Assembly (NCBI GenBank): GCA_024278215.1
Contig: JAJRTR010000140.1
Location: 8,612 to 72,611, forward strand
Direction: 5' to 3'
DNA length: 64,000 bases
Source of the DNA: a bacterium
Lineage (GTDB): Bacteria; UBP15; UBA6099; JAJRTR01
A model generated the notes under the pieces. It made no database searches. It saw only the letters and a program-made list of their open reading frames with translations, and was not told the DNA's origin. Numbering within the stretch: the first letter of the stretch is position 1; every line of letters begins with the position of its first letter. A program made the translations under genes and the position numbers. This document shows, piece by piece, positions 29,683-40,807 of the stretch.

Positions 29683-31035
29683 TCAGTCGAGAACCAGCCT
29701 TTCCGGCAGTCGTTCGCGGCGTTCGATGTCGGAGAGGTCTTCCGCCTCGCGTATAACGTCGACCTGACCGTCCTCGCCAATCAGCACCACGTTGGGCCTG
29801 TACTCGATGAACTGCATCCACTGCGTCACATTATACGCGCCGACCGGCGATATGATAAGGCGCACGCCTCGCTTTAGAGGCGGAAGTTGCACGCTTTCGT
29901 CGATCACGTCGATGTTCATGCACATGGGTCCGTAGATGACCGAGTTTTCGTTGGGGCCGCTCACTTCGCGGTCCATCTCGATGTTGAACTTGTACCAGTT
30001 GGATGTGAACAGGACATTTATGCCGCCGTCGATGATGTAGGAGCGTCGGCCGTCGGGCAGTCGTTTTGTCGCAATAACAGTGGATATCAGGTAGCCTGCT
30101 TCCTCGACCATTGCGCGGCCCGGTTCGAGAATAAGCTTCGGTGTGTCGCCCGGCCTGAGACTGTTGTAGAGCGCGTCTGTTATCCGCTCCGCGTACTCGT
30201 CGATTGACGGTATCGCAATATCAGGCGGCAGGTAGATGCCTTTGAGCCGGTTTTTTGTGGGCAGCCCGCCGCCGATGTCCAGGTATTCGATTTCGTAGTT
30301 AAACTTATCTTTAAGTTCATAAGAGAACCTGACCATCTTCTCGACTTCCACCGCGTATGCGTTCGGTTCCATAATGAAAGTGCCGATATGACAGTGGAGA
30401 CCGCGGATTTTGAGGTGCCCACGCGAGTAGATTCTCTTAACGGCATCCATCGCCTGGCCGGAATCGAGGTTGAAGCCGAAACGCGACCACTGCGGTTTGA
30501 TGCCGGTGTCCATGTTGAGGCGGATACCGATGCCGACCTGCCTGCCTTCCCCGGCGGCGATCTGCTCGAGGTCCGCGATCTCGTCGAGATGGTCCACGTG
30601 TATCATCGCCCCCTCGCGCACAGCCGTTCTCAGCGCGGCCGGCGACTTGTGCGGCCCGTTGAAGATAATGTCCTCGCCCGCGATGCCCAGCTTGCGTGCC
30701 TTGTCGTATTCCATCCCCGAGACGACCTCGGCGATAGCGCCTTCCTGGTGCATCACGGCGCAGATGGCCGAGATGTAATTGGTTTTGTACGACCAGCCGA
30801 ATGTGACATCCGGGTAGCGCGTCGAGAACGCGCCGCTCACCTCGCGGAACTTAGCCCGCAACGCCTTCTCGGAGAATACGAACAGGGGCGAGCCGTATTC
30901 TTTCGCCAGCTCGTCGACAGTCACCCCGTCGATCTCCGTACACACCCTCTTCATATACGCTGGACTGTTCCCATACTTGTTCATCAGGCCCGTGCGCAGC
31001 CTCTTTATTACCGGTTTTTCATACAGCATCTTCAT
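29683..31035 (-). CDS. PLP fold-III decarboxylase (diaminopimelate decarboxylase-like)
   Basis: 450 residues of the DAP/ornithine decarboxylase family. The PLP lysine lies in GWSYKTNY. HCHIGTF, DIGGGLP and LEPGRAM are the barrel motifs that hold the phosphate. GPMCMNID provides the Cys/Asp active-site pair and GAYN the final Tyr. It is bigger than LysA because of a 28-residue N-terminal extension. The ATG overlaps the ATP-grasp gene by 17 bp with GGGGG upstream, so it belongs to that operon. Pairing with ATP-grasp and PqqD-like proteins suggests it modifies an amino acid or peptide rather than making lysine. Confidence 0.85.
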   Translation of the reverse strand: MKMLYEKPVIKRLRTGLMNKYGNSPAYMKRVCTEIDGVTVDELAKEYGSPLFVFSEKALRAKFREVSGAFSTRYPDVTFGWSYKTNYISAICAVMHQEGAIAEVVSGMEYDKARKLGIAGEDIIFNGPHKSPAALRTAVREGAMIHVDHLDEIADLEQIAAGEGRQVGIGIRLNMDTGIKPQWSRFGFNLDSGQAMDAVKRIYSRGHLKIRGLHCHIGTFIMEPNAYAVEVEKMVRFSYELKDKFNYEIEYLDIGGGLPTKNRLKGIYLPPDIAIPSIDEYAERITDALYNSLRPGDTPKLILEPGRAMVEEAGYLISTVIATKRLPDGRRSYIIDGGINVLFTSNWYKFNIEMDREVSGPNENSVIYGPMCMNIDVIDESVQLPPLKRGVRLIISPVGAYNVTQWMQFIEYRPNVVLIGEDGQVDVIREAEDLSDIERRERLPERLVLD

Positions 31036-32074
31036 GGCAGTATTCCCCCGTTGTGACTATTTCCTGAAATGGTTTCATGTCCGTAACAACTTCATAAGTG
31101 TACCTTACATAGAGCTTGCCCGACTCGTAGTCGCGTGCCTTCGGGATAGGCATATCAAACGCACTGCGCAACATGTTCGACGGGAGATTCACACCGACTC
31201 CTGTCGCGAAAAACGACCATGCGGGCAGCCTCGGGTTGATCTCGATCAGGTATACCTCACCGCTGTCGACCATGCACTCAAGCTCGAACGCGCCTTTCCA
31301 CTTATATTCGGAAATGAACTTCGCCGCCGCTTCGAGCATCTCCTCGTTCCTGATTGTCACGCCGGTCCATATCTTGCCGAGTGAAGTGACCCCCATCTTT
31401 TTTATGCCGACCATGCCGAGATTTTCGCCCGTGCCGTCGCCCAGTCCGACAACATTAAGCTCTTCGCCTTTCACCATCTGCTGCACTATTATCGGGTAGC
31501 CCCATTCGGCGACAATCGAGTTGTAGTAGCTCGCCGCCTGCATCGACGTGTACGCGCAATACGCTTTGTAGAACGCGCCCTTGATCATGACCGGATATCC
31601 GATTTCGTCCAGCGCGGACTGCAAGTCTTCGTGTGATGAAACAACTCTCGTGGCCGGGATTCTTATGCCGATGGTTTTCGCCACATCCTCGAGGCGGTCT
31701 TTGCCCCTGAGCCTGAACTGCTCCATAGTCGGCACGACCGTTTTTATACCCATATTTTCGAGTTCTTCGCCATATTTTGTGAAGAATGGCAGCTCGACAT
31801 CGAGCGAAGGGATGACAAAATCCAGCCCGTATGTCGACTTGATATACGCGAGACGTTCCATGTAGGCGTCGCGCCCGCCGGACGGGTAAGGCATGATGTA
31901 GGACTTGTCCATCAGCCAGTCCAGATATATGCCCGGCTCCATCGCGTCGTATGCGAGGCCGACGACTTTCACATTCAATTCACTGTCTTCCCGGAGCGAC
32001 CTCGCCACCCCGACACCCGGGCCGGGATTGTCGACCGCGTTGATTCCCGTTACGCCGATAATCAGGTCTTTCAC
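31019..32074 (-). CDS. ATP-grasp ligase
   Basis: 351 residues of the carbamoyl-phosphate-synthase-like ATP-grasp superfamily. A Rossmann-like pre-domain (DLIIGVTGINAVDNPGPGVGVAR) is followed by the ATP-grasp fold with RGKDRLEDVAKTIGIRIPAT, IVQQMVKGEELNVVGLGD and the metal site YLIEINPRLPAW. Such enzymes join a carboxylate to an amine through an acylphosphate. The GTG at 32074 is preferred over 32086 because GAGGT, overlapping the previous stop, lies 6 bp before it. Middle gene of the PqqD-like/ATP-grasp/decarboxylase operon. The substrate is unknown. Confidence 0.88.
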   Translation of the reverse strand: MKDLIIGVTGINAVDNPGPGVGVARSLREDSELNVKVVGLAYDAMEPGIYLDWLMDKSYIMPYPSGGRDAYMERLAYIKSTYGLDFVIPSLDVELPFFTKYGEELENMGIKTVVPTMEQFRLRGKDRLEDVAKTIGIRIPATRVVSSHEDLQSALDEIGYPVMIKGAFYKAYCAYTSMQAASYYNSIVAEWGYPIIVQQMVKGEELNVVGLGDGTGENLGMVGIKKMGVTSLGKIWTGVTIRNEEMLEAAAKFISEYKWKGAFELECMVDSGEVYLIEINPRLPAWSFFATGVGVNLPSNMLRSAFDMPIPKARDYESGKLYVRYTYEVVTDMKPFQEIVTTGEYCHEDAV

Positions 32075-32082
32075 GCTGCACC

Positions 32083-32421
32083 TCACAGTAGTTTGATGTA
32101 TCTCAACTGGTCGACAAAGTCGGTCGCGTCGCGCTCCGCCTCATCTTTCTCAACGATAAAAAGTTCCGTCAGTCTCAGGGCTATCTCCTCCATCGTTTTT
32201 CTCTCCTTCAGCCCTTTCAGAACTTCGAGTCCCGTACTGTTGACGGTAAAACTCTCGCCGGTCGTCGGGTCGAACACGAAACCTTCTTCATTTATTGCCA
32301 GAAGATACAGGCGTCCCATTTCTGCGCCTTCGACCACCGCCGCTCCCTCGCGGGGTTCCGCCGCGGGCAGGCCATTCTCCGGACCTGAAACCCGCCCGGT
32401 TTCCGATTCCATGTTATCCAT
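32083..32421 (-). CDS. PqqD-like peptide-binding protein
   Basis: 112 residues; the conserved part is about 75 (LYLLAINEEGFVFDPTTGESFTVNSTGLEVLKGL, then a wHTH-like helical end). This matches PqqD-family proteins of the HPr-rel-A type, which resemble RiPP recognition elements that present a peptide to a modifying enzyme. The family normally begins close to LAI, so the ATG at 32319, with AAGG 7 bp upstream, may be the true start. The first 34 residues are low-complexity and acidic. It is coupled to the ATP-grasp gene by overlapping stop and Shine-Dalgarno. Confidence 0.75.
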   Translation of the reverse strand: MDNMESETGRVSGPENGLPAAEPREGAAVVEGAEMGRLYLLAINEEGFVFDPTTGESFTVNSTGLEVLKGLKERKTMEEIALRLTELFIVEKDEAERDATDFVDQLRYIKLL

Positions 32422-34500: not shown

Positions 34501-34529
34501 TTGACACCTGGCGATATTATGTATATTCT
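34501..34529 (+). promoter_or_regulatory. Strong sigma-70 promoter of the Rrf2-macro-Hdr operon
   Basis: TTGACA at 34501, 17 bp, TATTCT at 34524. The start of transcription should be near 34536, about 70 nt before the Rrf2 start codon. Confidence 0.8.
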
Positions 34530-34532
34530 GGA

Positions 34533-34561
34533 ATAAAGACCAGTGAAGCGATGGTCTTTAT
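34533..34561 (+). promoter_or_regulatory. 10-bp perfect inverted repeat at the transcript start
   Basis: ATAAAGACCA, 9 nt, TGGTCTTTAT. It begins 4 bp after the -10 box, so a bound protein would block the promoter. The neighbouring Rrf2 regulator is the obvious candidate for autoregulation (inference). As RNA it would form a leader hairpin. Confidence 0.7.
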
Positions 34562-34606
34562 GGTCACCATGGCAACTATAACTACAATAGGGGCGGAGAA
34601 GACACT

Positions 34607-35026
34607 TTGAGGATAAAAACCAGGGTCAGATACGCAGTCAGGCTTATGGCGGATATTATGATTCATGGTAAAGAAAACAATGTGCCTCTCAAAGATGTCG
34701 CCGAGCGCCAGAACCTCTCCAAAAGATACCTTTCCCATCTTGCAATCCACTTGAAAAATGCGCAGCTTCTCAAGAGCGTGTGGGGTATGAACGGTGGCTA
34801 CAAGCTCGGGCGGCACGCATCCGAAATCAGGATAATCGACATTATGGAAGCAGTCGACGGACCTGTGAATATTATTGATTGCATATCCGACCCCACCTGC
34901 TGCGAAAGGCATGATTACTGCGAATGCCTGGAAGTATGGAAAGATATAAACAATGGTATCACGTCGACACTCAAGAGATATACGCTGGAGGATCTTGCCT
35001 GTGTTCCTGCTGTAGTGCAGGAGTAG
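34607..35026 (+). CDS. Rrf2-family Fe-S transcription regulator (first copy)
   Basis: 139 residues of the IscR/NsrR/RsrR family. The winged helix (VRYAVRLMADIMIHG, SKRYLSHLAIHLKNAQLLKSVWGMNGGYKL) is followed by the cluster loop CISDPTCCERHDYC, whose three spaced Cys (plus one extra) fit an Fe-S cluster. It probably senses redox, iron or NO and controls the operon it heads. The start is TTG at 34607 with GGCGGAG upstream. An inverted repeat over the transcript start is a likely operator. The stop is TAG. A paralogue closes the block at 40.3 kb. Confidence 0.9.
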   Translation: MRIKTRVRYAVRLMADIMIHGKENNVPLKDVAERQNLSKRYLSHLAIHLKNAQLLKSVWGMNGGYKLGRHASEIRIIDIMEAVDGPVNIIDCISDPTCCERHDYCECLEVWKDINNGITSTLKRYTLEDLACVPAVVQE

Positions 35027-35124
35027 CACGGCTTGAAATATGTTGTTCCAGGGACGCGAGTCGGGAATTGGATAGAAATTCCCGGCATGTTCCTATCCAC
35101 CAAAAACCCAAAGGAGGCGGGCAA

Positions 35125-35673
35125 ATGTCCATTGCAGCTTTTACAAAGCCTGTAGAGACAAAAGTAGGAAGTACAAAAGTAAAGCTTCTTCGTGAAGACC
35201 TTACTGCGCTTAAGGTAGACGCGTTTGTCTACTATGCGAGAGAGAACCTTGATATCGGGACGGGATACGGCACGGCGATCCAGATGCGGGGCGGGCTGGA
35301 GGTTAAAAAAGAGCTTGAGAAAATCGGGAGCATCAGGATGGGCGAGTGTGTCATTACAACCGCCGGCATGATGAACTGTGAGCATATTATTCATGTCTGC
35401 GGCCCCAAGTTTCTTGAACCCGACATCGAGAAAAAACTCCGCACCTGCATGGAAAATGTACTGAAGACGGCAAAGAAAAACGGACTGAAGACGCTGGCCC
35501 TGCCGCCCATGGGGACAGGATTCTACGGTGTGCCACTGCCTGTTTGCGTCAGCGTGATGATTGACACCATTACGCAGCATATCCGGGGCGGCACGACTCT
35601 CGAGGAAATCATCATTTGTGTCGTCGACAAGCGTGACTTCAACGCTTTTAAAGAAAAAGTCGCAAATCTCTGA
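35125..35673 (+). CDS. Macro-domain protein
   Basis: 182 residues, cytoplasmic. The macro fold (LLREDLTALKVDAFVYYARENL, ECVITTAGMMNCEHIIHVCGPKF, LKTLALPPMGTGFYGVPLPVCVSVMI) binds ADP-ribose or related nucleotides and may remove ADP-ribose from proteins. The usual Asn/Gly loop is altered to GTGYGTAIQMRGG, so hydrolase activity is uncertain. The start is the ATG at 35125 with AAAGGAGG upstream; the longer frame runs back into the Rrf2 gene. It lies 21 bp before the cytochrome-type gene, in the same operon. Confidence 0.85.
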   Translation: MSIAAFTKPVETKVGSTKVKLLREDLTALKVDAFVYYARENLDIGTGYGTAIQMRGGLEVKKELEKIGSIRMGECVITTAGMMNCEHIIHVCGPKFLEPDIEKKLRTCMENVLKTAKKNGLKTLALPPMGTGFYGVPLPVCVSVMIDTITQHIRGGTTLEEIIICVVDKRDFNAFKEKVANL

Positions 35674-35694
35674 GAAAAGGAGCATCAAGAAATT

Positions 35695-36441
35695 ATGGGA
35701 AATGAAATCAATCCGCTTGTAGAGTTCGCTGTACATCAACTCCACTGGGTTCTGTTGTTTATGGGCACGGTGTACGCTTTCAAGATCAGATGGATACTGA
35801 AGCATCCGGCGGGTAAGGACCGACAGGCGCCCACCGGCGAAGCGAACCAGACCTCGAAGTCCGGCGCATGGTATTCCCTCTTCAGCATCGCCATGCCCTG
35901 GACCCTGAACAGTTATCGGGAAAAACCTATGATGTACGTGCAGTTTGTTATTTTTCATATATGTGTGGCGATGTCCATCACTATGACGATTGTCTTTTCA
36001 TACAGGCCGGTGTGGCTGTCGGCCCCTGCCACTATCGCAGTGATTCAGGTGATATATGCCGCCGGTTTCATCGTAGGCCTGTACCGGCTGGCGCGCCGGG
36101 TTTTCTCACCGGTGATGCGCATGATAAGTTCGCCGGACGATTACTTCTCAATGGCGCTCCTCGTAGTGTGGGTGGGGTTCAGCTTCCTAGTGATCGGCCA
36201 GGCACCGGCGTTCGCGGTGGCCATCGGCCAGCTCGACGCGTCGCAGGTCGCCAGTACTCAACTGAATGAAATACCGCTGATCGCTTATTATTTTCTGACG
36301 GCCTTCTTCCTCATCTATGTGCCGTTCAGCAAAATATCGCACTATATTTTTTATCCTTTCACCCGCTGGCATTTCGGCCAGACGATGGGGCACAGGGGTA
36401 TCTACCCGCTCAAGAGAATTGATAAGATGAAAGCAAGATGA
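35695..36441 (+). CDS. Heme-b membrane subunit (NarI/DsrM/HdrE-like)
   Basis: 248 residues with five or six transmembrane helices. Conserved histidines lie near membrane edges (HQLHWVLLFMGTVYAFKI, FHICVAMSIT, ISHYIFYPFTRWHFG), as in NarI-type diheme cytochromes that exchange electrons with quinones. It precedes the HdrD-like gene by 37 bp, and HdrE/DsrM proteins are the partners of such subunits. It should therefore anchor that protein and link it to the quinone pool. No sulfite reductase or methanogenesis gene is nearby. Confidence 0.85.
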   Translation: MGNEINPLVEFAVHQLHWVLLFMGTVYAFKIRWILKHPAGKDRQAPTGEANQTSKSGAWYSLFSIAMPWTLNSYREKPMMYVQFVIFHICVAMSITMTIVFSYRPVWLSAPATIAVIQVIYAAGFIVGLYRLARRVFSPVMRMISSPDDYFSMALLVVWVGFSFLVIGQAPAFAVAIGQLDASQVASTQLNEIPLIAYYFLTAFFLIYVPFSKISHYIFYPFTRWHFGQTMGHRGIYPLKRIDKMKAR

Positions 36442-36478
36442 CCCGCGCTGTGCGCGAGAAACAATTAAGGAGACGGCA

Positions 36479-38224
36479 ATGGGAAAAACAAGATCATATA
36501 AAGCACAAAAAGTTGTAGACCTGATGAAAGCTAAAACAAAGAGCCGGCAAATTATGTTGTCCCTGGAGTCCTGCGTAAAGTGCGGACAGTGCATCGACCA
36601 GTGCCACTATGTGCTGGCGAACCCGGACGACCCGACCTTCGCACCGCCCTACAAGGCGGACAAGTTGCGCAAGTTCTTCAAGGCGCACGAGGACTGGACC
36701 GGCAAGGTCATCCCCTGGTGGGTCGGCGCGAGAAGCATCTACACCGACGAGGAACTCGAGGAACTAAAAGATGTCGTGTTCGGCAAATGCACTGGATGCC
36801 GCCGATGTTCCCTCGTATGCCCTATGGGTGTGGACATGGCCACGTTCAACGGCATGGCCCGCAATCTTCTCTATTCCGTCGGCATCATGCCCGAGGGCGT
36901 GTGGGCGGTGGCCAAAGACCAGTGGGAGATCGGCAACCAGATGGGTGTACTCAAGGAAGACTACCTGGATACACTCGAGTGGATGGAAGAAGAACTACAG
37001 TCCAAACACAACGACCCGAGCATAAAAATACCGATAGATAAAAAAGGCGCTGACATAATGTACACCATCAACCCGCGCGAAGCGAAGTACGACCCGCGCT
37101 CTATAGCGGATGCCGCCGAGATATTTCATTTCGCCGGCGCCGACTGGTGTATGCCCAGCGAAGGCTGGGACATGACGAACTTCGGGCTGTTTGTGGGAGA
37201 CCCGTCGCTGGGTGCCGCCGCATCAAGCAGGCTGTATACAGCAGCCCAGGAACTGGGGGTCAATAAGGTCGTCATCTCCGAGTGCGGACACGGCTACAGG
37301 TCCACCAAATGCGAAGGGCCCAACTGGGCAAAGATGGACCTTGATTTCCCCATGGAAAGTTCCGTCATAACGATGCTCGACTACATCAAGCAGGGTAAAA
37401 TAAAAGTTGACAAATCGAAGAACTCCGAAAAAGTCACATATCACGATTCCTGCAATTTCGCACGCAGCTGCGGCATGACCGAGGAGCCTCGCGAAGTGCT
37501 GAGCCTCGTATGCTCGGACATCCAGGAGATGTATCCCAACCGGCAGTGGAACTACTGCTGCACAGGCGGCGGCGGTGCGATGTCCATGTCGGAATACGCG
37601 CCCATGCGTCTGAAATCCGCCAAGATCAAGGCGGAACAGCTCAGGGCCACCGGTGCGAAGATCGTCGTCACTTCCTGCCACAACTGCGTGGACGGCCTCA
37701 CCGACCTCATCAAGCATTATAACCTCGACATGAAGGTGACACAGCTTGTAAACCTCGTCGCAAACGCGCTTGTCGTGCCGGCGTCGAAAATGCCGAAGGT
37801 TATGAAAGAAGTCTCTATGCCTCTGGCCGGTAAAAAGATTCTTGTCATCGACGACGAACCGGATGTAAGAATATTCCTCACCAAAATATTCAAAGAGAAC
37901 GGCTGTGAGGTTTTTGAAGCGCCGGATGCCAATCAGGGAATGAGGATTATCAGGGACAAGAACCCGGACCTCGTGTCTCTCGATATGATCCTGCCCCACA
38001 AAACCGGTGAAAAACTGTATTGGGAACTTCGCAAAGACGAGAAATACAAAAAGCTCCCGGTTGTTATCGTTTCAGGCTATACGAAGATTGATGATCCGAA
38101 GATAGATTTCGACGCATTCCTGGAAGATAAGGGTATTCCCGCTCCCCAGGGCTTTGTGGAAAAACCGATTCATCCGGATGTGCTGATCGAGACAATATCG
38201 GGTGTGCTGCTCGAAAAGGTTTGA
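36479..38224 (+). CDS. HdrD/DsrK-like Fe-S protein fused to a receiver domain
   Basis: 581 residues. Two [4Fe-4S] ferredoxin motifs (CVKCGQCIDQCH at about 32, CTGCRRCSLVCP at about 104) are followed by two CCG regions: CGHGYRSTKC, then HDSCNFARSCG with NYCCTGGGG and TSCHNC. These bind the noncubane cluster of HdrD/DsrK-type disulfide or thiol redox enzymes. From about residue 455 a full receiver domain follows (ILVIDDEPDVRIF, phospho-Asp in VSLDMILP, Thr/Ser region VVIVSGYT, Lys in GFVEKPI). The fusion implies that electron transfer is controlled by, or reported through, phosphorylation. The kinase and receiver genes follow directly. Confidence 0.92.
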   Translation: MGKTRSYKAQKVVDLMKAKTKSRQIMLSLESCVKCGQCIDQCHYVLANPDDPTFAPPYKADKLRKFFKAHEDWTGKVIPWWVGARSIYTDEELEELKDVVFGKCTGCRRCSLVCPMGVDMATFNGMARNLLYSVGIMPEGVWAVAKDQWEIGNQMGVLKEDYLDTLEWMEEELQSKHNDPSIKIPIDKKGADIMYTINPREAKYDPRSIADAAEIFHFAGADWCMPSEGWDMTNFGLFVGDPSLGAAASSRLYTAAQELGVNKVVISECGHGYRSTKCEGPNWAKMDLDFPMESSVITMLDYIKQGKIKVDKSKNSEKVTYHDSCNFARSCGMTEEPREVLSLVCSDIQEMYPNRQWNYCCTGGGGAMSMSEYAPMRLKSAKIKAEQLRATGAKIVVTSCHNCVDGLTDLIKHYNLDMKVTQLVNLVANALVVPASKMPKVMKEVSMPLAGKKILVIDDEPDVRIFLTKIFKENGCEVFEAPDANQGMRIIRDKNPDLVSLDMILPHKTGEKLYWELRKDEKYKKLPVVIVSGYTKIDDPKIDFDAFLEDKGIPAPQGFVEKPIHPDVLIETISGVLLEKV

Positions 38225-38356
38225 CTTTACAATGTTCGTGAAATAATGACCGCGTGGAAGAATGGGGCCGGGCACTGGAGTAATAACGTAATTATTCGGA
38301 AATGGCTGAGACACTGGATTCGTGTGTCGGCGCCCATTGTAACCCGGAGGTGAAGA

Positions 38357-39829
38357 ATGGCAACTGAAACTCTGGCGGAAAACGGCACAGGTAAACTTGA
38401 TGTCCACGAACTTGTTTGTGAAAGACTCTTCGACGAGGTGCCCTGCTATATCTCGATCCAGGACCGCGATTTCCGGATAGTCGAGGCAAACAGTAAGTTT
38501 GAAAAAGAATTCGGCAAACGCATCGGCGAGTTCTGCTACAAGGTATACAAGGGCACGGACCACGTGTGCCCCGACTGCCCTATAGAAGTGACATTCAGCG
38601 ACGGCAGGGAGCAGACGCGGGAAATTGTCATATTCGACCGCAAGGGCCTGCCCCGCGACATGCTGGTCGTCACAAAACCTCTTCGCGACAACATCGGCAA
38701 CATCGTTTGCGTCATGGAAATGTTCACCGACATCACCGTGACCAAAGAACTCCAGAAACGACTCAAAGACAGCCTGACACGTTATCACACTCTGTTCGAC
38801 AGAGTGCCGTGTTTCGTTTCCGTGCAGGACCGCGACTTCAGGATCATGGAAGCAAACCAGATGTTCGAGGACAGCTTCGGAGAGCGGCGCGGCGAGTTGT
38901 GCTACAAAGTCTACAAGCAACGGGACGAGCGTTGCGAGGAATGCCCGGTCGCTAAAACATTCGAGGACGACCGTGTGCACAGCAGCTAGGAAGTCCTCAT
39001 CACCGGCGACGGCAGTCAGATGAATGTCATGGTTTACACGTCGCCTATAAAGGATAACAGCGGGAACACTGTGGCGGTTATGGAAATGCTCACCGACATA
39101 ACGCAGGTCCGCAAACTTCAGGAGGAACTCGCGCGTGTGGGCAAACTGGTAGCCAGCGCGGCCCACGGCGCCAAAAACGTGATAGACGGCCTGCGCGGCG
39201 GCGTTTATGTGCTCAACATCGGCCTGCGCGACGGAGACCAGGAAAGTATAGACACCGGCTGGGACATGGTCAAAAGAAACGTGGACCGCGTTTCCGCTAT
39301 GGTCATGGACATGCTCTACTGTGCGAAGGAGAGAACCCCGCGCCGACTGGCGGTCTCTGTGCCGGAGATCGCCCGCGAGGTGATCGAACTCTACAGCAAA
39401 CGCGCCAAAGACCGCAATGTGACACTGTCGGGCGAAATAGACGATGTCGAAACTATCACGGCGGACCCTAAAGATATTCACTCCATGCTGGCCAACCTGG
39501 TGACAAATGCCATAGACGCCTGCGGAGAAGTCGAGGACACCGAACGCGAGTTCAACGTTACATTAAGGGTTTTTCAGGATGATGATAAGATCATTATTGA
39601 AGTCGAGGACAACGGGATCGGCATTGGCGACGAAGCAAAAAAGAAACTGTTCAACGTCTTCTACTCGACCAAAGGCGCGTTCGGCACCGGGTTCGGCCTG
39701 CTGGTGTCGCACAAAGTCGCCACGGAACACGGCGGCGAGATATCCGTTTCTTCGGAAAGAAACAAAGGCGCTAAATTTATTGTAAAGCTGCCTTCGAGTA
39801 ATACTCTGGACCCCGAAGCCGGGGAATAA
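38357..39829 (+). CDS. Double-PAS histidine kinase interrupted by one in-frame TAG
   Basis: One open frame of 491 codons if the TAG at 38987 (codon 211) is read through; otherwise two pieces, 38357-38989 and 39020-39829. PAS 1 (about 18-135, FRIVEANSKFEKEFG, FCYKVYKGTDHVCPDCP) and PAS 2 (about 140-260, FRIMEANQMFEDSFG, CYKVYKQRDERCEECP) are duplicates with Cys pairs. The His box is AAHGAKN (about His 270), the N box LVTNAIDA, G1 EDNGIGIG, G2 GTGFGL. Nothing else is damaged. The TAG falls in PAS 2, in HSS-TAG-EVLI, where Glu or Gln is plausible. GGAGG precedes the ATG. It probably phosphorylates the neighbouring receivers. Confidence 0.85.
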
Positions 39830-39842
39830 CTTGCATCTGCGC

Positions 39843-39861
39843 CCACGCAACGACTGCGTGG
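39843..39861 (+). other. Short GC stem-loop between kinase and receiver
   Basis: CCACGCA, 5-nt loop, TGCGTGG, 13 bp after the kinase stop. There is no T-tract, so it is more likely an RNA processing or stability site than a terminator. Confidence 0.35.
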
Positions 39862-39915
39862 TGACACACGCTATATTGTTTCGCGACGATATAAATAATA
39901 TTAAAAGGGGAAAAC

Positions 39916-40320
39916 ATGAAAAAGATACTTGTGGTGGACGACGAGAAAGACATCCGGATATTCCTGAAGAAACTCATGGAGGAGAACGGATACAGCGTAT
40001 CATGCGCGACAGACGGAGAATAGGCGCTTTCGTGCATATCGAGTGAAAAACCGGACCTGATAACACTGGACATGTCCATGCCCAACAAATCGGGAATCAG
40101 GTTCTACCGGGAATTGCGCGACCATGCGGAAACCGCCACGATCCCTGTCATAGTAGTCACAGGCATCACCGGCCAGGGCGGTTCCGACGACACGGAACGG
40201 TTCCTGAAAACAAGAGGAAGCATCCCGCCGCCCGAAGCGTTCGTGCCGAAGCCGATTGATGAACGCGAACTCATAGACACTGTCGGCAAACTGTTGAACA
40301 AAGAAAAAGCGGCGTTCTGA
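39916..40320 (+). CDS. Response regulator receiver with one in-frame TAG
   Basis: 135 codons from the ATG at 39916 (AAAAGGGG upstream) to TGA at 40320, with TAG at 40021 (codon 36). Read through, it is a complete receiver: ILVVDDEKDIRIFL, then CATDGE-TAG-ALSCI, phospho-Asp in LITLDMSMP, Thr in VIVVTGIT, Lys in FVPKPI. It is close kin to the receiver at the end of the HdrD-like protein, with the same PPPEAF/PAPQGF insert, where the aligned residue is Gln. The downstream Rrf2 gene starts one base after its stop. Without readthrough only a 35-residue stub is made. Confidence 0.8.
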
Positions 40321-40321
40321 C

Positions 40322-40807
40322 GTGAAGTTTTCAACCAAAGCAAGATATGCTGTCAGGCTGATGATAGACATTGCCGAACACAGCGTGGATACCCAGCCTG
40401 TGCAGATAAAAGAAATATCTGCCAGGCAGGGTATATCCGAGCGCTATCTCGGGCAACTCGTTATTTCATTAAAAAACAAAGGACTCATCCGCGGAATCAG
40501 CGGCAAAAGCGGCGGCTATCTCCTTGCGAAACAACCAGCGAATATCAGAATCAGCGACATCATCGAGACGATGATCGGACAGATAAATGTTGTTGATTGC
40601 GTGCGAAATCCCGACGCATGCGACAAGACCGGTTTTTGTGAGATGAGAAAAATTTATTCGCTTGTGAACGACCGCATACTCGAGACGCTCGCAGGTTTCA
40701 CACTGGCGGCAGTAGTCGAGTCGAGAAAAAACGCCCCGCCTCATACGGATTCGTGCACTGGTTGTGAAAAATGCTCCGTTCGAGACCTTTGCAGCACCAG
40801 CTTCTGA
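40322..40807 (+). CDS. Rrf2-family Fe-S transcription regulator (second copy)
   Basis: 161 residues, GTG start one base after the receiver stop. The winged helix (STKARYAVRLMIDIAEHS, SERYLGQLVISLKNKGLIRGISGKSGGYLL) and cluster loop CVRNPDACDKTGFC are as in IscR-type proteins. Unusually the C-terminus adds four more Cys (CTGCEKCSVRDLC), which could bind a second metal centre. It closes the block that the first Rrf2 gene opens. Two different Fe-S sensors bracketing an Fe-S redox operon suggests layered redox control (inference). Confidence 0.9.
   Translation: MKFSTKARYAVRLMIDIAEHSVDTQPVQIKEISARQGISERYLGQLVISLKNKGLIRGISGKSGGYLLAKQPANIRISDIIETMIGQINVVDCVRNPDACDKTGFCEMRKIYSLVNDRILETLAGFTLAAVVESRKNAPPHTDSCTGCEKCSVRDLCSTSF

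Follow-up and report, generated by a model that had tools for sequence, protein, structure and literature searches.

We analyzed a 64,000-nucleotide stretch of bacterial DNA (assembly GCA_024278215.1, contig JAJRTR010000140.1, positions 8,612 to 72,611; hereafter the window, whose own coordinates are used below), in which seven plus-strand genes at positions 34607 to 40807 include one for an HdrD-like iron-sulfur protein with a C-terminal receiver domain. In order, these genes encode an Rrf2-family regulator with a TTG start and a Cys-rich putative Fe-S ligand region (34607 to 35026; 139 amino acids [aa]; Pfam Rrf2, 116.5 bits); a macro-domain protein (35125 to 35673; 182 aa; Pfam Macro, 79.5 bits); an HmcE/TmcC/NarI-like membrane cytochrome b with at least four predicted transmembrane segments (35695 to 36441; 248 aa), whose NCBIfam matches to HmcE (40 bits) and TmcC (33 bits) are both far under the cutoffs; the HdrD/HmcF/TmcB-like iron-sulfur protein fused to a receiver (36479 to 38224; 581 aa), recognized by below-cutoff NCBIfam matches and by full-length relatives; a PAS-PAS histidine kinase (38357 to 39829; 490 codons, including a TAG at 38987 to 38989); a stand-alone receiver without an output domain (39916 to 40320, with a TAG at 40021 to 40023); and a second Rrf2-family regulator (40322 to 40807; 161 aa; Pfam Rrf2, 117.8 bits). 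Pfam matches were recovered for six of the seven, the membrane protein being the one without. Domain searches with Pfam and NCBIfam thus confirm the gene set and the C-terminal receiver of the original prediction, a reading made from the sequence alone; that prediction had missed that the kinase and the free receiver are each interrupted by one in-frame TAG.

The HdrD-like part of the fusion contains two 4Fe-4S motifs and one canonical CCG domain with the CX(n)CCX(n)CXXC signature (Pfam CCG, 39.9 bits; Fer4_8, 39.3 bits), the hallmarks of CCG-type iron-sulfur proteins. The receiver occupies residues 450 to 577 (37826 to 38209; Pfam Response_reg, 61.4 bits over residues 454 to 573) and has the acidic pair (Asp458/459), phosphoacceptor aspartate (Asp502), and lysine (Lys562) of a phosphorylatable receiver. 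A structure model of the whole fusion (predicted local distance difference test score [pLDDT], 82.6; predicted template-modeling score [pTM], 0.67) found no full-length match in the PDB, only a LutA-like piece and receivers. When its TAG is read through, the kinase combines the phosphoacceptor histidine with a HATPase_c domain (87.6 bits) expected of histidine kinases, with no Pfam HisKA match; it is predicted to be cytoplasmic, with zero transmembrane segments, and each of its two PAS domains bears a C-x10-C-x2-C motif. The free receiver, likewise read through, scores 106.8 bits against the DVU0259-family model NF045717, short of the cutoff of 160.

To place the fusion in a wider context, we scanned 84,980 genomes, one per species, and recovered 130 relatives, which excludes the possibility that it is unique to this assembly. 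We kept 80 of these, nearly all of which match the query from end to end at 54 to 78% identity, and counted neighbors at the 79 loci with an unbroken fusion. In a genome of the same order (G002), a 78% identical fusion is found together with the macro, cytochrome, kinase, receiver, and downstream Rrf2 genes in the same order, while the fusion of a second genome (G012) is 61% identical. At least 15 named phyla are represented among the kept relatives: Acidobacteriota, Zixiibacteriota, Myxococcota, Planctomycetota, Calditrichota, Gemmatimonadota, LCP-89, Electryoneota, Thermodesulfobacteriota, Hydrogenedentota, Poribacteria, Ignavibacteriota, Bacteroidota, Pseudomonadota, and Elusimicrobiota. 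Full fusions are rare in Desulfobacterota (about 9 of 395 genomes). The macro gene lies upstream at 77 of the 79 loci, the other two beginning within the cytochrome gene at a contig end; the cytochrome is present at every locus (an automated count of 74 had been lowered by overlapping open reading frame [ORF] starts); the kinase follows at 72, with four of the remaining seven running off the contig; and the free receiver is found at 58. An arrangement shared by about 80 other genomes is far beyond chance. The conserved unit is therefore macro, cytochrome, HdrD-receiver fusion, kinase, and, usually, free receiver, without the two Rrf2 genes; the original prediction had overlooked the conservation of the macro gene. 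The check proposed with the original prediction, a search for further fusions with conserved neighbors, was thus passed strongly.

Across the 79 fusions, Asp502 is conserved in 100% and Asp458/459 and Lys562 in 98% each, and the cysteines at positions 32/35/38/42, 104/107/110/114, and 325/360/361/400/403 are invariant (Fe-S cysteines at 98 to 100%). His270 and all six PAS cysteines, that is, both C-x10-C-x2-C triads, are present in 100% of 66 kinases, as are Asp52 and Lys112 in 51 free receivers. In the cytochrome, His88 and His216 are the sole conserved histidines (98 to 100%), enough for one bis-His heme b. With conserved neighbors and essentially invariant phosphorylation residues, the original prediction is borne out in its central claim, that a complex of the Hdr type is integrated with a two-component system.

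These figures bear on a more conservative explanation, namely, that this is an ordinary Hmc- or Tmc-type complex whose regulators were fused by chance, the receiver being a structural or assembly module on which phosphorylation has little effect. HmcF and TmcB are indeed the best NCBIfam matches of the fusion, and two-component genes adjacent to hmc and tmc have been described (PMC5109826). However, the equivalog cutoffs of both models are missed twofold (HmcF, 334 of 750 bits; TmcB, 318 of 735; for DsrK the figures are 266 of 400), the phosphorylation residues are 98 to 100% conserved across deep divergence, and it is the macro gene, not the periplasmic TmcA or HmcA cytochrome, that is the conserved neighbor. 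We regard this explanation as improbable.

The macro protein has a confidently modeled fold (AlphaFold2 model, mean pLDDT of 95.1) that matches macroH2A and MacroD structures in the PDB. In the alignment, it retains the adenine-site aspartate (Asp25, 94%) and the GxGxYG loop. The catalytic loop of MacroD hydrolases is marked by the motif NAAN; the operon protein has Y-A-x-D/N in its place (Tyr37, 84%; Ala38, 84%; Asp41, 85%). With NAAN absent and both Asp25 and the loop kept, the sequence makes hydrolase activity unlikely and ligand binding more likely.

We then considered the metabolic setting of the operon. The window genome has dsrA, dsrB, a DsrC-family gene, dsrD, and aprA, the first two encoding dissimilatory sulfite reductase. 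Among carriers of the operon, dsrA scores above its curated cutoff in 40 of 50 genomes, with contig-end fragments in several of the others; aprA does so in 46 of 51, the window genome included; and a comparison of the two lists finds dsrA and/or aprA in 49 of 50. Within Acidobacteriota (297 genomes, 27 of them with dsrA), all 10 full-fusion carriers possess dsrA against 17 of 287 noncarriers (Fisher test, 7e-12; 1e-8 once seed genomes are removed), and in Zixibacteria (132 genomes), dsrA is found in 29 of 32 carriers and in 23 of the 100 others (7e-12; 6e-11 without seed genomes), all four values being overstated in strength because related genomes are counted as independent. The association is also physical: in several genomes, the operon lies 7 to 24 kb from dsrA on the same contig. 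In one zixibacterial cluster (L062), it is embedded among the dsr genes themselves, the order being dsrA, dsrB, cobB/dsrN, a gene for an NAD(P)-binding Fe-S oxidoreductase (presumably DsrL-like), and dsrC, then macro, cytochrome, HdrD-receiver fusion, and kinase, and then an RsbRD_N gene (which we take to be dsrT), dsrM, dsrK, dsrO, and dsrP. Here dsrA, dsrB, dsrM, dsrK, dsrO, and dsrP all exceed their cutoffs, and dsrC is a DsrC-family match. Both co-occurrence with dsrAB and physical linkage thus tie the operon to the dissimilatory sulfite/sulfate pathway, a connection absent from the original prediction.

Such linkage could in principle arise by hitchhiking, the operon spreading with dsr islands by lateral transfer while serving another disulfide or quinone process. 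Core-only relatives, which lack the macro gene and the receiver, do stand beside kinases in Acidobacteriota without detected dsrA (five such relatives, none of them in a dsrA-bearing genome). Against this, the full fusion is always accompanied by dsrA in the acidobacterial sample, and the distance between the two varies from the above-mentioned 7 to 24 kb to megabases (G097 and G511), yet the co-occurrence persists. We consider hitchhiking very unlikely.

Two further arrangements were seen around these genomes. On another contig of the window genome (C151), which also bears dsrAB, a DsrMK-like pair (L042, 5636 to 10921; DsrK, 314 bits, below the cutoff) is bordered by genes for an Rrf2 protein, a kinase of similar type, and a DVU0259-like receiver, a layout in which the same control parts are joined to a second module. 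At four loci of Acidobacteriota without detected dsrA (L138, L139, L141, and L142), a close HdrD-cytochrome pair lacking the receiver fusion and the macro gene lies next to genes for a larger kinase and for a response regulator of 225 aa.

Taken together, we interpret the operon as a second DsrMK-like module for electron transfer from quinol to DsrC with built-in two-component control, in which the HdrD subunit itself is phosphorylated, a reading to which we assign a probability of roughly 0.55. On this model, the cytochrome b would draw electrons from menaquinol and pass them to the HdrD-like subunit, where they could run through the two [4Fe-4S] clusters to the CCG-type catalytic cluster and there reduce a disulfide or trisulfide partner. 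Homology and the position within the dsr cluster point to DsrC as the most likely partner. The soluble kinase, by virtue of its two Cys-bearing PAS domains, may sense the redox, thiol, or sulfide state of the cytoplasm and would phosphorylate the HdrD-fused receiver, as well as the free receiver where there is one; the phosphorylated receiver might then change how active the HdrD subunit is or how it docks. Expression would be set by the upstream Fe-S/Cys regulator. The most speculative step is that the macro protein might bind an ADP-ribose-type adenine nucleotide and so add an energy or NAD signal.

The same parts can be read in the opposite sense, from redox to signal, with the redox state of the quinone or DsrC, sensed by HdrD, altering the fused receiver, which would tune the kinase by taking up phosphate as a sink or by offering a docking site, and the output being gene regulation via the free receiver and other response regulators rather than electron gating. 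The free receiver lacks an output domain and is unseen at about a quarter of the loci, so that the fused receiver is often the sole nearby partner of the kinase, and the hmc regulators rrf1 and rrf2 work on expression (PMC10924467). A kinase that owns conserved Cys-PAS sensors has less need of a second sensor, however, and a DNA-binding response regulator is not among the conserved downstream neighbors. This reading strikes us as unlikely.

Several observations weigh against a phosphorylation-controlled DsrMK-like module. Apart from the overstated Fisher values, a fifth of the carriers lack dsrA above the cutoff, several of these having contig-end fragments only. DsrD, which we tried and rejected as a marker of direction, occurs in just 6 of 51 carriers (the window genome included) and does not discriminate between sulfite reduction and sulfur oxidation. 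One locus (L131), beside dsrMKJOP-like genes, is truly without a receiver. Finally, the stops in the kinase and free receiver of the window may mean that the control half is dispensable or has been lost there.

A broader picture we offer tentatively and at somewhat less than even odds: an electron-transfer subunit of the dissimilatory sulfur pathway would itself be a response regulator through which a soluble Cys-PAS kinase switches the flow from quinol to DsrC, with a nucleotide signal from the macro protein, as standard equipment in many uncultured sulfite- and sulfate-metabolizing phyla and uncommon among the classical Desulfobacterota. Direct phosphorylation of a respiratory subunit by a two-component kinase would be unusual, and so would the association of a macro domain with a respiratory complex in bacteria. 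The dsr-bearing lineages recovered by metagenomics are mostly known from gene lists alone; a conserved operon accompanying dsrAB in many phyla would supply a missing piece of how such lineages regulate and wire electrons into sulfite reductase, as well as a marker gene set.

The two TAG codons deserve separate treatment. That in the kinase splits the frame into ORFs of 210 and 269 aa. At both positions, Glu or Gln is the usual residue in relatives (chiefly Glu in the kinase), and the genes of G002 and G012 are free of stops. Recoding of TAG, by pyrrolysine or in general, was rejected as the cause: TAG terminates 8 of the 39 long, nonoverlapping ORFs of the window as an ordinary stop and a profile search gave only a below-cutoff match for PylD, making whole-genome recoding unlikely; no tRNA genes were found within the window. 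Old pseudogenes were likewise rejected, as the conserved columns are largely retained: outside the stops, only 5 of 80 near-invariant columns deviate in the kinase and 1 of 21 in the free receiver. This indicates either that the nonsense mutations arose recently or that the draft genome contains assembly or consensus errors, with suppression as a third option. The kinase and free receiver may thus have been broken recently in this genome, and the window copy may be a damaged example of the operon.

In contrast to the conserved unit, the regulator upstream is variable. The upstream Rrf2 gene of the window sits in a slot that is filled by an Rrf2 protein at only 22 of the 79 loci; elsewhere, it is taken by Cys-rich MerR/helix-turn-helix regulators (clusters of 20 and 7 loci) or by a low-molecular-weight phosphatase/PAS/sigma54 protein (15 loci). 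The latter, exemplified by L127 (2119 to 3861) and seen at 14 other loci, joins a low-molecular-weight tyrosine phosphatase to PAS and sigma54 activator domains. The MerR/helix-turn-helix protein of L118 (6931 to 7731) and 19 other loci is Cys-rich in the middle and ends in a receiver-like stretch without a Pfam call. A same-strand downstream Rrf2 gene occurs only in the window and one close relative, whose copy is 50% identical (L040/L052). The supposed bracketing of the system by two Fe-S regulators is therefore not a general feature.

In a tree of the HdrD core, the macro-bearing fusions form one supported clade, separate from DsrK, with at least four changes in fusion state. One of them, at L127, probably reflects a broken frame, and another, at L131, a genuine absence; the tree is consistent with few fusion changes. 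Two fused proteins without a macro gene (L137 and L161) branch just outside the main clade. Some Desulfobacterota have cytochrome, HdrD, receiver, and kinase as unfused neighbors, suggesting that the fusion joined genes that are already adjacent elsewhere. Four such unfused operons were noted (L155, L156, L157, and L158); in L155, L156, and L158, a similar small gene follows, which is universal stress protein-like by eye and has no NCBIfam match. Elsewhere in the window, on the minus strand at 29683 to 32421, three neighboring genes resemble, as judged by eye, those for a small PqqD-like protein, an ATP-grasp ligase, and a pyridoxal phosphate-dependent decarboxylase and possibly form a peptide-modification cluster.

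Among known systems, plain membership in Hmc, Tmc, or DsrMK is excluded by the cutoffs, the missing subunits, and the tree. The Hmc operon of Desulfovibrio vulgaris resembles the new operon in pairing a NarI-like HmcE with an HdrD-like HmcF and in having regulator genes at the same locus; of these, rrf1 encodes a receiver and rrf2 is the namesake of the Rrf2 family. The multiheme cytochrome HmcA and HmcB, HmcC, and HmcD are absent from the window operon and from its conserved neighbors, and the new operon differs further in having the receiver fused to the HdrD subunit and in adding a macro gene and a PAS-PAS kinase. The Tmc complex (TmcABCD) shares a TmcB/TmcC-like pair, and the best NCBIfam model for the receivers is DVU0259; however, TmcA and TmcD are not conserved here, no cytochrome c (such as the type II cytochrome c3 TmcA) is found among the conserved neighbors, and the covalent receiver fusion and macro gene are found in the new operon. 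Tmc variants without TmcA have been published (PMC10553843). The macro protein is like MacroD and macroH2A domains in its fold, adenine-binding aspartate, and phosphate loop and unlike MacroD in lacking the catalytic NAAN and in being bound to an operon.

In the open-access full-text literature, we came across no earlier account of the receiver fusion, of the macro gene, or of the link across phyla, and the main texts of large dsr surveys mention neither a macro domain nor two-component genes. The exact gene set is thus apparently undescribed, as the original prediction held; the kind of system is not, since Hmc/Tmc-type complexes have been linked with regulators before. The hmcABCDEF operon of D. 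vulgaris includes rrf1 and rrf2 (PMC10924467, which cites Rossi 1993 and Keon 1997), and the hmc and tmc genes of Desulfococcus multivorans adjoin histidine kinases and response regulators (PMC5109826). DsrMK/DsrMKJOP likewise combines a cytochrome b with a CCG iron-sulfur protein, is linked to the chemistry of DsrC, and occurs in the same gene clusters, whereas the new HdrD falls in a clade apart from DsrK and coexists with true dsrM, dsrK, dsrO, and dsrP in a single cluster. A second DsrMK-like pair near dsrAB has been reported from peatland Acidobacteria as the dsrM2K2 paralogs (PMC6018796), for which the main text describes neither a receiver fusion nor a kinase or macro gene; these paralogs may be kin to, or include, the macro-operon family described here.

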